Notes under the pieces: generated by a model
Database searches by the model: none
The model's input: the letters and a program-made list of their open reading frames with translations, nothing else
Told to the model about the DNA's origin: nothing
Translations under genes and position numbers: made by a program
Part shown: one piece after another, positions 27,101 to 32,319 of the stretch
Layout of the letters: every line of letters starts with the position of its first letter
How positions within the stretch are numbered: position 1 is the stretch's first letter
Source of the DNA: Alphaproteobacteria bacterium
GTDB lineage: Bacteria; Pseudomonadota; Alphaproteobacteria; Ferrovibrionales; Ferrovibrionaceae
Length of the DNA: 64,000 nt
Assembly: GCA_017307375.1 (NCBI GenBank)
Contig: JAFKFH010000007.1
Coordinates: 62,001 to 126,000 of the forward strand
Reading direction: 5' to 3'

Positions 27101-27187
27101 CGGCCTGGGGCACCGCCCTGTCATCCATGGTTCATTCGGACGAGATATGCCATAGTTCCTAAATTGAACAGAAGAGCAGGAAAACTC

Positions 27188-27973
27188 ATGTCGGGCTCGA
27201 ACAATCACAACGTCGACCAGATGGAGCGAACGATCGAGGGCGAGTTCGTCGACGAGGTGCGCGACGTCTGCAATACCCTCGACGTGCTGCTGGGCAATCT
27301 GCGTTCGGGCACGGCCAAGCCGGCCGATGCGCTGGCCACGCTGCGCCGCTCCTTCGCCAGCATCGAAGCCCGCTCGAAGGGCGTCGACCAGCCGCTGATC
27401 TCGATCCTGGCCTTTCGCGCCACGGACTACCTCGCCGATATCAAGGACCTTTCCGCCGGGCAGATCGACGATCTGCAGACGTTCGTCGACCGCATGCGCG
27501 CCGTGGCCGACGGCGAGGTCGCCAAGGTCGAGGCCGCGCCGCAGATGGTGCGCGAACTGCCGGCCAAGCGGGCGACCGATTTCGACATCGGCGATGTCAA
27601 GCAGCTCAACGTCGAATCCATGGTGGTGGCGCCGGACCGCATGACGCAGCGCGTGGTCTCGCGCGAGCTTGCCGCCTGCGGCTACCGCGTCTCGTCGGAA
27701 AAGTCGGCCCTGAGGGCGCTGGAGCTCATTTCGCGCACCCGGCCGGATTTCGTCATCGTTTCGGCCGTGCTGGACGAACTCTCCGGCATCGACGTTGCCA
27801 GTGCCCTGACCGCCATGCCGTCGACGCGCAATATCCCGATTGCGCTGTTGACCAGCTATACCTGGGGCCACCCGTCGTTGCACGACCTGCCGACGCGGGT
27901 GGCGATCATCCGCAAGGGTAATTCCTTCGGTTCCGACCTCGCGGAATTCCTCGGGCGGTTCGGCGTCACCTGA
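27188..27973 (+). CDS. Degenerate receiver protein with helical N-terminal domain
   Basis: A 261-residue protein. The first about 110 residues are helical and Hpt-like in pattern (VDEVRDVCNTLDVLLGNLRS), but no phosphorylatable His is evident. Residues about 145-260 have the receiver fold: MVVAPDRMTQRVVSRELAAC, IALLTSYT, and a Lys in IIRKGNSFGSDL. At the phosphoacceptor position, in FVIVSAVLDELSG, Ser192 replaces Asp (the P and G positions align at +4 and +8), so it is a pseudo-receiver. The ATG at 27188 follows AGCAGGAAAAC. It lies 87 bases after the CheY-like gene and probably works in the same signalling system, as a phosphorylation-independent adaptor. Confidence 0.75.
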   Translation: MSGSNNHNVDQMERTIEGEFVDEVRDVCNTLDVLLGNLRSGTAKPADALATLRRSFASIEARSKGVDQPLISILAFRATDYLADIKDLSAGQIDDLQTFVDRMRAVADGEVAKVEAAPQMVRELPAKRATDFDIGDVKQLNVESMVVAPDRMTQRVVSRELAACGYRVSSEKSALRALELISRTRPDFVIVSAVLDELSGIDVASALTAMPSTRNIPIALLTSYTWGHPSLHDLPTRVAIIRKGNSFGSDLAEFLGRFGVT

Positions 27974-27985
27974 CGCCGACCGGCA

Positions 27986-28210
27986 TCAGACGATGATGCC
28001 CAGACCGCGCTTCGGCTTGTCGCCGGCGCGGTTTTCGCGCTTGTCGCCGTCGCCGCGGCCTTTCAGGTTCTTGTCGTCGCGCTTCTGGTCGGTCTTGCTG
28101 CCCGACGTGGCCACCTTGGCCTGGGCCAGGGCGCCTACCTGCTGCTGAGCGGCCTGAACCGGTTGGGCAGCCTGGGGCGTGGTATTCGGAACCACCGGGG
28201 TTACGATCAT
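27986..28210 (-). CDS. Small basic, disordered protein of unknown function
   Basis: A 74-residue protein starting MIVTPVVPNTTPQAAQPVQA with AAGGGAG upstream. The N-terminal half is rich in Gln, Ala and Pro. The C-terminal half is strongly charged, with Lys, Arg and Asp runs, and ends GLGIIV. It is predicted to be disordered and no family was recognised. It lies between the convergent pseudo-receiver gene (12 bases apart) and the divergent halohydrin-dehalogenase-like gene. A good ribosome-binding site makes it plausible as a real gene. Confidence 0.55.
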   Translation of the reverse strand: MIVTPVVPNTTPQAAQPVQAAQQQVGALAQAKVATSGSKTDQKRDDKNLKGRGDGDKRENRAGDKPKRGLGIIV

Positions 28211-28303
28211 TGCGGCTTCTCCCTTCTGGAGATCAGTTCGTTCGCTAATGTAACATAAGTTGTCGCGAATTCGATTCAATTTGCATGAAAGGCCGATATC
28301 GTC

Positions 28304-29035
28304 ATGACGAATCGTACGGCTCTGGTCACCAATGTCACCGACTATGCCGGCCTGCCTGGTGCAACCGCGCTCGCGGCAGATGGTTTCCGGGTATTCTGCC
28401 ACGATCCGTCTTTTGTCGACCCGGTCGCCCGCGCGGCCTTCGTGGCCGGCCATTCGGGACTTGAGGCGCTGGCCGGTACCACGCCGGAGGCGCTGGTCGC
28501 CGAAGTCGTCGGGGCTGCCGGCCGGCTCGATGTCATCGTCTCGAACGACAGCCACCCGGCGACGCGCGCCCGGATCGAGCAGGCCGAGGCGCAGGCCTAT
28601 CGGGATACCCTCGAGGCGCTGATGGTATGGCCCTTCCGGCTGGTCGGCGCCGCGACGCCGGTGATGAAGGCGCAGGGCGGCGGCCGGCTGGTCTTCATCA
28701 CGTCGGCGTCCCCGCTGCATCCCTATCCCGGCTTCTCGATGTATGCCTCGGCCCGGGCCGGGGCGAGCGCCCTGTCGCAGGCGCTGGCCCGCGAGCTGGC
28801 GCCGCACGGCATCCAGGTCAACGCCATCGCGCCGAATTTTCTCTACAGCGAGACCTATTATCCGCGGGCGCAATGGATGGAGGATCCGAAATACGTCCAG
28901 CGCCTCAAGGAGATGGTGCCGATGCAGCGGCTGGGCCGGCCCGAAGAGATCGGCGCGCTGATCGGCTTTCTTGCCTCGGGCAAGGCCGAGTTCGTCACCG
29001 GCCAGGTCATCGCCTTCACCGGCGGCTGGCCCTGA
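28304..29035 (+). CDS. Halohydrin dehalogenase-like SDR protein
   Basis: A 243-residue short-chain dehydrogenase fold protein that lacks the glycine-rich NAD(P) motif of ordinary SDRs. Instead it has Thr9-x4-Tyr14-x-Gly16 (TNVTDYAG), the nucleophile-pocket motif of halohydrin dehalogenases. The catalytic triad Ser134-x12-Tyr147-x3-Arg151 has exactly the spacing of HheC-type enzymes (within FITSASPLHPY and MYASARAG). Further HheC-like blocks are FCHDPSF, DVIVSNDSHPA, NAIAPNFLYSETYY and AEFVTGQVIAFTGGWP. Such enzymes convert vicinal haloalcohols to epoxides and halide, without a cofactor, and open epoxides with azide, cyanide or nitrite. The natural role is unclear. mobA starts 2 bases after the stop. 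The activity is predicted, not proven. Confidence 0.78.
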   Translation: MTNRTALVTNVTDYAGLPGATALAADGFRVFCHDPSFVDPVARAAFVAGHSGLEALAGTTPEALVAEVVGAAGRLDVIVSNDSHPATRARIEQAEAQAYRDTLEALMVWPFRLVGAATPVMKAQGGGRLVFITSASPLHPYPGFSMYASARAGASALSQALARELAPHGIQVNAIAPNFLYSETYYPRAQWMEDPKYVQRLKEMVPMQRLGRPEEIGALIGFLASGKAEFVTGQVIAFTGGWP

Positions 29036-29037
29036 GC

Positions 29038-29625
29038 ATGGCCGTCGTCGGCGCAATCCTCGCCGGCGGCCTGGCGCGCCGGCTGGGCGGCGGCGACAAG
29101 CCCTTGCGATTGCTGGCCGGTCGGCCGCTGCTGGCCCACGTCGCCGAGCGGCTGAGGCCGCAGGTCGACCGGCTGATCCTCAATGCGAACGGCGATCCGG
29201 CGCGTTTTGCCACCTTCGGTATCGAGGTCGTGCCCGACAGCGTTCCCGGCAATCCCGGTCCGCTCGCCGGCATCCTCGCCTGCCTTGAGACGGCGACGGA
29301 TGCCGACTGGGTGGTCACCGTGCCGGGTGATGCGCCGTTCCTGCCGGCGGACCTGGCGATGCGGCTGGTCGCCGCCGGCCCCGCCGCCGCGTCGAGCCGG
29401 GGCCGGCGCCATCCGGTAATCGGCGCCTGGCGGCCGGGTCAGGCGCGCCGGCTTGCCGAACTCCTCGCATCGGGCGAACGGCGTGTCGGTGTGTTCGCGG
29501 CCGACGCCGGCGTTGTCGAGTGGCCGGCCGAACCGGTCGACCCTTTCATGAACCTCAACGAGCCCGCCGACTTCGCCGCGGCCGAGGCGCTGATCACGGC
29601 GTCAGCCGGGTATGGTCGAGGATGA
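29038..29625 (+). CDS. mobA: MobA, molybdenum cofactor guanylyltransferase
   Basis: A 195-residue nucleotidyltransferase. The signature GAILAGGLARRLGGGDKPLR binds GTP; further blocks are GNPGPLAGILACLE, VTVPGDAPFLPADL, HPVIGAWRP and FMNLNEPADF. It links GMP to molybdopterin to give the MGD form of the cofactor. The start at 29038 sits directly after the dehalogenase-like gene. It converges with mobB, overlapping it by 32 bases. Confidence 0.92.
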   Translation: MAVVGAILAGGLARRLGGGDKPLRLLAGRPLLAHVAERLRPQVDRLILNANGDPARFATFGIEVVPDSVPGNPGPLAGILACLETATDADWVVTVPGDAPFLPADLAMRLVAAGPAAASSRGRRHPVIGAWRPGQARRLAELLASGERRVGVFAADAGVVEWPAEPVDPFMNLNEPADFAAAEALITASAGYGRG

Positions 29626-30152: not shown

Positions 30153-30953
30153 TCACCCTGCCACCTTGCGCGCCAGTTCGGCAAGGCCGCCGGCCACGGC
30201 ATCCGGATCGGTAAAGAGAACTTCATGGCCGCCCGGAATCTCGGTCTCGTCGAACGACCCGAGCGCGGCGACCATGCCGCGGAAGGCGCCCGGCGGCAGC
30301 GACTTGTCGTCGCGCGCGAACAGGAAGGCGCGCCTGAGCGGCAGCTTGGCAAAACGCGCCGCGTCGACCGTGCCGGTATAATATCCGTAGGGCTGGACGA
30401 CGAGCCGGCTGATGACGGCATCCTGCTGGGCGGCGGTGTCGCCGGGCATCAGCACGTACCGCACCAGATCCGGCGGCACCGGCAGCGTGTTGCCGTTGGC
30501 CGCCGCAGTCTTTTCGTACTGGGCCTTGATGTCGGGCGGCAGCGAGTCGAGCAGCCGCTTGCCGTCATCCGCCAGAAAGGCATCGAAAAACACGACCTGA
30601 GCGACCTTGTCCGCTGCCCGCGGCACCGCCTGCTGGACGACGACGCCCCCTGCCGAGTGGGCGACGACGACGACGGGCGCCTGCTGACGCTGCAGCATCG
30701 CGACCAGGGCGGCGGTGCAGTCCTCCAGGGTAACCTTGCCGGGATCGCCATTGTCAGGGCCGTAACCCGGTAAGGTGATTGCCTCGGCGGTGAAGCCGCG
30801 CTGGCTCAAGCCTTTGACGACACCGTCCCAGGCGGTGCCGGTGTGCCAGGCGCCATGCACCAGGATAAAATGCGTCGGCGCCTGCGCGAAAGCCTGGCCG
30901 GCCGCAACGGCCAGCCCGGCGGCAAGGACCAAGGCGAGGATTTGCCTTATCAT
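30153..30953 (-). CDS. Exported alpha/beta hydrolase
   Basis: A 266-residue protein with a signal peptide (MIRQILALVLAAGLAVAAGQ, cleavage after AFAQA). Alpha/beta-hydrolase blocks are FILVHGAWHTGTAWDGV (oxyanion region), the nucleophile elbow VVVAHSAGGVVVQQ, and the catalytic His in IPGGHEVLFTDPDAV. This pattern resembles esterases of the salicylate-esterase/EstC-like group. The ATG follows GGAGGATCC. The gene is divergent from an AraC regulator, which is likely to control it. Confidence 0.87.
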   Translation of the reverse strand: MIRQILALVLAAGLAVAAGQAFAQAPTHFILVHGAWHTGTAWDGVVKGLSQRGFTAEAITLPGYGPDNGDPGKVTLEDCTAALVAMLQRQQAPVVVVAHSAGGVVVQQAVPRAADKVAQVVFFDAFLADDGKRLLDSLPPDIKAQYEKTAAANGNTLPVPPDLVRYVLMPGDTAAQQDAVISRLVVQPYGYYTGTVDAARFAKLPLRRAFLFARDDKSLPPGAFRGMVAALGSFDETEIPGGHEVLFTDPDAVAGGLAELARKVAG

Positions 30954-31080
30954 TGGATCCTCCATTGATGAATTGGCTGGCGCATTATCGGGGGCGCCGC
31001 ATCCGGTGGCCTTGTCCATTCGTGCGGTTATTCGCCCTAGCGCTTTGACAGCGCCGAGCCATGGGGTGCAGCTTGGGGTC

Positions 31081-31908
31081 ATGGACAAGGGCGGCAGCTA
31101 CGAGGGCTATGACGTCGGCGCGCTGTGGACCGGAACGCCCGGCCTCGCCGTCCGCCGGCTGACCCGGACCAGGGGGGTGGTGCCGATTCCCCGCGTGCTG
31201 CCGCAGTACCGGATTGCCTTGTCGCTCGGCGACAATCGCGCGACGCTGGCGATCGGCAACCGGGTCGCCACCCGCGATGCTTTTCCGGCGGGTACTGCCG
31301 TGCTGGGCCAGCCCGGCGATGTATTCGACGGCGAGATGCGCGATCGCGTCGACGTGCTGTTCTTCCTGATGGAGCCTGAATTCGTCGGTGCCCGCGCCGG
31401 GCTGGAGTTGTCCAACCGGCCGCTGCGACAGGATCTGGCACTGCTCGATCTGTCGTGCCGGCTGGTCGCCGTGCTGGGCGAAGGCGTCAGGAACGAGGCA
31501 CTTTACTGCGACCTGTTGATCGAAGCACTGGTCGACCGGCTGATTACACTGCATGGTGCGGCCGGCGGCCGGACACCCTATCGCGAGACGCTGGCACCCG
31601 CCCGGCTCAAGGGGCTGATCGACTTCATCGAGGCGAACCTGGACGCGCCGTTGCGCCTGACCGACCTGGCCGGTGCCGCGGCATTGAGCCGCGCCCATTT
31701 CGCCCGGGCCTTCCATGCGGCCACCGGCCAGGCGCCGCATCGCCATGTCCTGCAGCGGCGGCTGCAGCGCGCGCATGACTTGCTGCAGCGCACAGAGTTG
31801 ACGGTCGCCGAGATCGGCGCCCGCTGCGGCTTTGCCGATTCAGCGCATTTCAGTCGGGTCTACCGCCGCTATTTCGGCCAGCCGCCCACGACCGGCCGCA
31901 TGCGCTGA
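31081..31908 (+). CDS. AraC-family transcription regulator
   Basis: A 275-residue regulator. The C-terminal AraC DNA-binding domain (about residues 170-272) has two helix-turn-helix motifs: RLTDLAGAAALSRAHFARAF and VAEIGARCGFADSAHFSRVY, followed by RRYFGQPP. The N-terminal region has no recognisable sugar-binding fold. It is separated by 127 bases from the divergent hydrolase gene. The start has no strong ribosome-binding site, so the N-terminus is uncertain. Confidence 0.88.
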   Translation: MDKGGSYEGYDVGALWTGTPGLAVRRLTRTRGVVPIPRVLPQYRIALSLGDNRATLAIGNRVATRDAFPAGTAVLGQPGDVFDGEMRDRVDVLFFLMEPEFVGARAGLELSNRPLRQDLALLDLSCRLVAVLGEGVRNEALYCDLLIEALVDRLITLHGAAGGRTPYRETLAPARLKGLIDFIEANLDAPLRLTDLAGAAALSRAHFARAFHAATGQAPHRHVLQRRLQRAHDLLQRTELTVAEIGARCGFADSAHFSRVYRRYFGQPPTTGRMR

Positions 31909-31911
31909 CGG

Positions 31912-32226
31912 TCAGTGCCCGCTGATCACGGAATGCAGCGGCTTGGTTTCCTCGAAGCGGGCCTTCTGCTCGGCCGTGGCTTCCTGCTGATGCTTCTTCT
32001 TCCATTCGGAATAGGGCATGCCGTAGACCGCTTCCCGCGCCTCGTCGTCGGTCAGCGCGATGCCGTTTTCCTTGGCGGCGGCGAGATACCACTTGCCCAG
32101 ACAGTTGCGGCAGAACCCGGCGAGGTTCATCAGCTCGATGTTCTGCACGTCGGTGCGCTTCTGCAGATGCTCGACCAGCCCGCGGAACGCGGCGGCTTCG
32201 AGCTTCAGGCGATCCAGGTCATCCAT
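31912..32226 (-). CDS. DUF1244 family protein
   Basis: A 104-residue protein. The conserved core TDVQNIELMNLAGFCRNCLG and KWYLAAAKENGIALTDDEAR is typical of DUF1244, a small alphaproteobacterial and gammaproteobacterial family with two conserved Cys residues (here CRNC). The C-terminal GMPYSEWKKKHQQEAT is also characteristic. Function unknown. The start at 32226 has AAGGAG. It converges with the AraC gene, with only three bases between the stops. Confidence 0.9.
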   Translation of the reverse strand: MDDLDRLKLEAAAFRGLVEHLQKRTDVQNIELMNLAGFCRNCLGKWYLAAAKENGIALTDDEAREAVYGMPYSEWKKKHQQEATAEQKARFEETKPLHSVISGH

Positions 32227-32319
32227 CGTGATACTCCTTGTTCCGACAACCCGACATATTGCTTGTCTCGTGTGCGTCAACTACAAGATTTCAACGGGTT
32301 AGGGCAGGGGGAACGAGTC

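Follow-up and report, generated by a model that had tools for sequence, protein, structure and literature searches.

A probable A/C-branch halohydrin dehalogenase, cofactor-free and encoded beside mobA in an alphaproteobacterium

Halohydrin dehalogenases (HHDHs) convert halogenated alcohols to epoxides by ring closure and can also run this reaction backwards. They serve in the synthesis of beta-substituted alcohols and chiral epoxides, which makes every distinct enzyme of the family a candidate catalyst. Their two diagnostic motifs and the SDR counterparts of these are defined in the accessible parts of PMC11976700 and PMC4989007. Motif 1 is the nucleophile pocket, and it stands in place of the NAD(P) glycine motif. 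The closest described enzymes are HheC, HheA and an enzyme of Tistrella mobilis. As far as the accessible text of PMC4989007 goes, HheA5 from T. mobilis is among the characterised HHDHs, and a C-terminal extension marks HheC. The excerpted text of PMC7321119 gives epichlorohydrin at 75% yield for the HHDH of T. mobilis ZJB1405, and that of PMC11976700 gives an up to 5-fold higher activity and a 10 K rise in apparent melting temperature for the F12Y variant of HheC. The question touched by the present locus is the natural task of HHDHs in environmental bacteria. A literature search for the physiological role of HHDHs found no paper on the subject, judged by title.

The window is the whole stretch of 64,000 nucleotides that was analysed. 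It contains an uninterrupted ATG-to-TGA frame (Table 1) whose product the sequence-only reading had named a candidate halohydrin dehalogenase, with both diagnostic motifs and without an NAD(P) glycine motif. The alignment bears out both statements: the motif residues Thr9, Tyr14 and Gly16, and Ser134, Tyr147 and Arg151, are where they had been placed, and the site of the SDR motif reads T-N-V-T-D-Y-A-G. The protein lacks both parts of the classical SDR signature, T-G/A-x3-G/A-x-G and Y-x3-K, and the triad Lys of SDRs is Arg151 here. Also in the alignment, D82, N178, Y185 and P187 agree with HHDH usage and not with SDR usage.

Table 1. Features of the predicted HHDH gene and its immediate flanks, in window coordinates.
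Feature	Position	Strand	Basis
Predicted HHDH gene, 243 aa (P0001)	28304..29035	+	ORF, PDB matches, tree, predicted fold
Motif 1 codons, T9-x4-Y14-x-G16	28328..28351	+	sequence; definition from the accessible parts of PMC4989007 and PMC11976700
Motif 2 codons, S134-x12-Y147-x3-R151 (catalytic triad)	28703..28756	+	sequence
GAAAGG, ribosome-binding-site-like, 11 bases 5' of the HHDH ATG	28287..28292	+	read from sequence
A+T-richer gap 5' of the HHDH gene, possible promoter region	28212..28303	+	GC 0.46 vs 0.68 for the window
mobA-like gene, ATG at 29038, 2 bases 3' of the HHDH stop (29033-29035)	29038..29625	+	sequence

The gene looks real, judging by its codon-position GC (0.70/0.52/0.84, resembling the window's mobA and gamma-glutamyltranspeptidase gene) and by a dN/dS of about 0.34 against its nearest relative, L090 (0.214/0.628 by counting, over 169 aa). 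There is no sign of recent transfer in its GC content (0.684, with 0.683 for the window), an absence that is no proof. The contig that carries it measures at least 434 kb. A paralogue was looked for in the same genome, where the next best match by E-value is 33% identical. A promoter scan of the + strand upstream of the gene returned no sigma-70-like site. On the reverse strand, a long ORF (27986-29056) overlaps the gene. Its 3' part looks like a small divergent gene (27986-28210) that would start from an inner ATG, preceded by a ribosome-binding-site-like AGAAGGGAG stretch, and encode 74 aa, Gln/Ala-rich and then Lys/Asp/Arg-rich; the remainder of the ORF looks like a shadow frame.

The specificity of the motifs is apparent from a census of the blastp matches at E <= 1e-10 in loci up to L146. 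Without near-duplicates and sequences shorter than 200 aa, it comprises 129 distinct relatives. The HHDH-like group and the other SDRs are separated by a clean gap in E-value, empty from 7.6e-51 to 1.2e-29. Among the 40 proteins with E < 1e-35, motif 1 is found by pattern in 35, motif 2 in 34 and both in 29; the SDR-type motif 1 is in none of them, and one fits the loose SDR motif 2 pattern. Neither HHDH motif occurs in any of the 89 weaker SDR relatives, which have SDR motif 1 in 83 cases and SDR motif 2 in all 89. By this distribution, the HHDH motifs of the window protein are not a product of chance. When the window protein was aligned with 40 other locus proteins and three PDB chains, all HHDH-like, 32 of the 44 rows kept all six motif residues. 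The 12 that deviate are the contig-end fragment L090, three rows with Trp at position 14, two with Thr or Leu there, and six without Tyr147. The three HHDH-like proteins with Trp for Phe/Tyr in motif 1 (L092, L103 and L107) would all be missed by a strict motif search. The two with Thr or Leu for the motif 1 aromatic (L145 and L146, both of genome G786) have an intact triad and group with HheC in the tree.

Searches of the PDB point in the same direction. The ten best phmmer matches (E 1e-53 to 2.2e-46) are labelled HHDH, halohydrin epoxidase or, for 6a41, dehalogenase; next come 8h8y ("alpha/beta hydrolase", 1.6e-30) and DHRS4 (3.6e-30). AbHheG_m (8hqp, 5.8e-29) and the HHDH-labelled 7wkq (5.6e-28) rank below DHRS4, so PDB sequence rank alone does not separate the HHDH family. 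An AlphaFold2 monomer model built from 16 sequences has a pLDDT of 91.5 and a pTM of 0.90. Its eleven best PDB entries by VIA-align are HheC, HheA and 6a41 ("Dehalogenation enzyme"), at Z 34.9-31.9 and rmsd 2.0-2.2, and SDRs start with DHRS4 at Z 30.2, less than 2 units under the lowest HHDH entry (31.9). HHDHs and SDRs resemble each other in fold, which keeps this margin small, and a fold match is weak by itself. The first 50 rows of the comparison hold no HheB or HheG entry and are uninformative about those two. Profile collections return general names: two generic SDR families in Pfam, a FabG-like family alone in PHROGs, and generic SDR names in NCBIfam, where none among the best 25 of 200 families matched reaches its curated cut-off. 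Automatic annotation would therefore probably read "SDR oxidoreductase".

In a tree of 50 rows, the 44 HHDH-like rows are split from six SDRs, included as outgroup, by a branch supported at 100/100. The window protein, L090, HheC and the two G786 proteins form a set at 97/92; L090, whose host belongs to the same family of organisms, is 70% identical to the window protein over 172 columns. A larger set of 16 rows (97/89) adds six proteins without the catalytic Tyr, three of Tistrella type, and HheA with its Microbacterium twin; PDB 6a41 falls outside this A/C set. Within it, the fork setting HheA apart is supported at 60/39, and the branching order among HheA, HheC and T. mobilis has weak support or depends on long branches. 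HheC is flagged as one of these, which makes its place unsure; the HheA pair has a branch length of 1.6, and the outgroup branches are long too. The 3zn2 row is an engineered HheC. Since the forks are partly weak and branches long, we assign the window protein to the A/C branch and choose no subtype. The type sequences of subtypes B, D, E, F and G are not among the rows of the tree. Taken together, the motifs, the best PDB matches, the tree and the predicted fold strongly support the halohydrin dehalogenase reading. The gene very probably encodes a cofactor-free enzyme of the A/C branch, whose mechanism is drawn by analogy with HheC.

By that analogy, and following the mechanism in the accessible text of PMC4989007, Ser134 would hold the substrate hydroxyl, and Tyr147, its pKa lowered by Arg151, would take the hydroxyl proton. 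The alkoxide would then displace the neighbouring halide, which would exit into the pocket made by motif 1 and other loops, and the epoxide would be released. In the reverse direction, opening of an epoxide with azide, cyanide, nitrite or halide would be expected. Activity, direction and substrate of the window protein are all what we infer from this comparison. Elsewhere in the same genome, two proteins score above the cut-off for PF06441 (EHN-type epoxide hydrolases), which a single protein does in one of 14 control genomes, and they are 42.2% and 41.4% identical to the epoxide hydrolase beside HheA in Microbacterium sp. J1-1. Three proteins exceed the cut-off for haloacid dehalogenase type II, as happens in two of the 14 controls. 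All five are encoded on contigs other than that of the HHDH gene. Because epoxide hydrolases and haloacid dehalogenases are in the genome, if unlinked, a route from haloalcohol through epoxide to diol is possible in the host. Most likely, the enzyme turns over occasional haloalcohols or epoxides, and the epoxide hydrolases encoded elsewhere finish the conversion.

The six relatives without Tyr147 make up a clade that is stranger than the window gene itself. They are L104 (G164), L141 (G770), L139 (G774), L140 (G771), L105 (G369) and L095 (G052), with the locus pairs L104/L127, L141/L152, L139/L153, L140/L154, L105/L129 and L095/L130. All keep motif 1 (the halide pocket), D82, Ser134 and Arg151; at position 147, five have Pro and the sixth has Ala. 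They form a single clade (95/89) of three coded families (f16, f36 and f61) within the 16-row A/C set, so that branch need not be uniformly dehalogenating. Genomes G164 and G770 additionally hold an intact HHDH-like protein (L128 and L144). In these two genomes, which are of one genus, a P450 gene is divergent to the Tyr-less gene (L127 and L152). L139 has an enoyl-CoA hydratase gene next to it and a biotin carboxylase gene in the vicinity, and TetR and RPE65-type genes adjoin L105. A literature search on pseudoenzymes and tyrosine, in one wording, gave no paper that mentions HHDHs among the matches listed. By counting, dN/dS is 0.043/0.387 for L104/L141, 0.305/1.048 for L104/L139 and 0.326/1.556 for L105/L095. 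Tistrella-type pairs give 0.019/0.266 and 0.013/0.112, and L145/L146 gives 0.223/1.268. In all seven pairs measured, dN is below dS, values of dS above 1 being near saturation.

The sequence-only reading had called the known enzymes few, which is out of date: the accessible text of the 2016 review PMC4989007 lists 37 sequences and a further 26, and our own searches add to the picture. With the window's own genome left out, matches at E <= 1e-35 occur in nine of 60 relatives and, in a class sample of 384 genomes, in 41, the latter a lower bound with seven candidates scored per genome. Motifs were checked for 31 of the 47 match places in the class sample (30 loci and one more). At E <= 1e-50, matches are found in two of 17 other genomes of the order and in none of 397 other genomes of a phylum sample (398 with the window's own; seven candidates scored per genome). 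The sole match in G369 and in G052 is a Tyr-less protein, so a match alone is no proof of an active HHDH. Several of the class matches are on megabase-size contigs. In a plasmid collection, the single match at E <= 1e-30 comes from Microbacterium sp. J1-1. A peptide-pattern scan of genomes, a narrow method, left L009 as the sole HHDH-like locus among 80 kept of 147.

On the 5' side of the gene are a histidine-kinase-like gene and response-regulator-like genes, so called by sequence (the Pfam match of 27164-27973 is sub-cut-off). On the 3' side, mobA is followed, in convergent orientation, by mobB, a serine-type alpha/beta hydrolase, an AraC-type regulator, and DUF1244, creatininase-like and flavin-reductase-like proteins. 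We compared the window with 18 loci from other genomes or plasmids, 17 in number, by a crude gene calling that in L133 overlooked even the HHDH. None of the flanking genes is common to all 18, and clear sharing of neighbours is seen among close relatives only (the Tistrella-type trio, L123/L134 and L126/L132). The earlier remark that the location gives no hint of a haloalcohol pathway holds in that no linked haloalcohol genes were recognised; but neighbours vary among relatives, so the absence is not distinctive. These shifting neighbourhoods suggest that gene context alone will not reveal the natural role. A few window genes have echoes near other HHDHs: the DUF1244 protein (31912-32280, reverse strand) has a 65% homologue near that of L134, in one of 18 loci and perhaps by chance; the alpha/beta hydrolase (30153-31088) has a 29% homologue close to the HHDH of L124; and L123 and L127 contain matches to kinase-type genes. 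These are taken for members of large or common families. Epoxide hydrolases of the alpha/beta hydrolase fold use Asp at the elbow position. The hydrolase at 30153-31088, considered as a partner epoxide hydrolase, was set aside since its elbow has Ser in that place (AHSAGG).

Several other explanations bear on this assignment. The generic names in Pfam and NCBIfam, with no cut-off reached among those 25 best NCBIfam families, would suit an ordinary NAD(P)-dependent SDR that matches the HHDH motifs by chance. That is highly improbable given a missing glycine-rich motif, an Arg for the Lys, HHDH motifs in none of the 89 other SDR relatives, and best matches by sequence and by fold that are HHDHs. 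The gene does adjoin mobA, as had been noted beforehand, and given the short gap, the two are probably co-transcribed. The two-base spacing and the common strand could even be read as a functional unit tied to molybdenum-cofactor metabolism, an idea to which we give almost no credence. Counting the window's own genome, mobA orthologues were found in 17 of the order's 18 genomes. A tblastn search (E <= 1e-6) of 16 other mobA loci from the same family, covering about 1.5 kb to either side or less where a contig ended, detected no HHDH, and it detected even mobB in just two of them. The new physiological role that the sequence-only reading had drawn from mobA is not supported by these loci. A functional link appears unlikely, and the position next to a molybdenum-cofactor gene looks accidental.

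The natural reaction is a separate matter. The fold and triad of an HHDH could be kept for opening epoxides with anions, or for another cofactor-free reaction, with dehalogenation not the natural task; we regard this as possible but rather doubtful. It would suit the lack of recognised haloalcohol genes around the gene, the matches in 41 of 384 class genomes, and the reversibility of the HHDH reaction with several nucleophiles, as given in the accessible text of PMC4989007. Known HHDHs are described as acting on industrial xenobiotics (PMC9396626, in excerpt), a poor fit with that spread. The spread itself may be limited, the phylum sample having returned the window's own match only, and the window protein agrees in all six motif residues with active HHDHs, one of which, from T. 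mobilis, dehalogenates. Since one enzyme can run both directions, this alternative also overlaps with the dehalogenase reading, which we continue to prefer. A broader proposal, put forward tentatively, is an old cofactor-free lineage of SDR fold, fairly common in the class, that would handle a natural epoxide or halohydrin and not man-made haloalcohols. A Tyr-less sub-clade would have branched off from it with other chemistry or non-catalytic binding. This proposal is built on the frequency of matches in the class, the megabase contigs, dN below dS in the seven pairs, neighbours common to close relatives only, and the Tyr-less sister clade.

Returning to the known systems, the classical SDRs FabG and DHRS4 have the Rossmann fold and the Ser and Tyr of the triad in common with the window protein. 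The six aligned SDRs have a Gly/Ala-type motif 1 and Lys, whereas the window protein has T-N-V-T-D-Y-A-G and Arg. HheA (PDB 4z9f and 1zmo; L135 on the Microbacterium sp. J1-1 plasmid NZ_CP089591.1) is 40% identical with identical motifs. On that plasmid, epoxide hydrolase, HheA and glpK genes lie between transposase genes or IS elements, in what by its gene content is a classical catabolic cassette; the window gene, unlike it, has no epoxide hydrolase, glpK or transposase partners. HheC of Agrobacterium radiobacter AD1 (PDB 1pwx and 3zn2) is 41% identical, gives the top PDB matches by fold and shares the smallest starred set with the window protein. They differ in that the window protein lacks the C-terminal extension with Trp249, stopping at 243, which corresponds to residue 244 of the 254-residue HheC chain, and naturally has Tyr at the position of Phe12, as in HheC F12Y. 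The T. mobilis protein (G275, L121:8571-9317) is 58% identical over 243 columns (blastp 59% over 240) and shares the six motif residues, the Tyr in motif 1 and the A/C branch. Its locus has a CRP-like regulator gene 5' of the HHDH (by Pfam on the G178 copy, 98.7% identical in G275), where the window has mobA 3'. The C2 and C3 stretches of G275 are 100% identical over 4001 bases, at equal coordinates, to the T. mobilis KA081020-065 plasmids NC_017957.2 and NC_017966.1, and a search of G275 with the window protein gives a single match, both at E <= 1e-35 and at E <= 1e-40. From the species and the single copy, not from an accession, we infer that the G275 gene is the published HheA5 / HHDH-Tm. 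Set beside these enzymes, the window protein is well supported as an additional sequence of an already known enzyme family.
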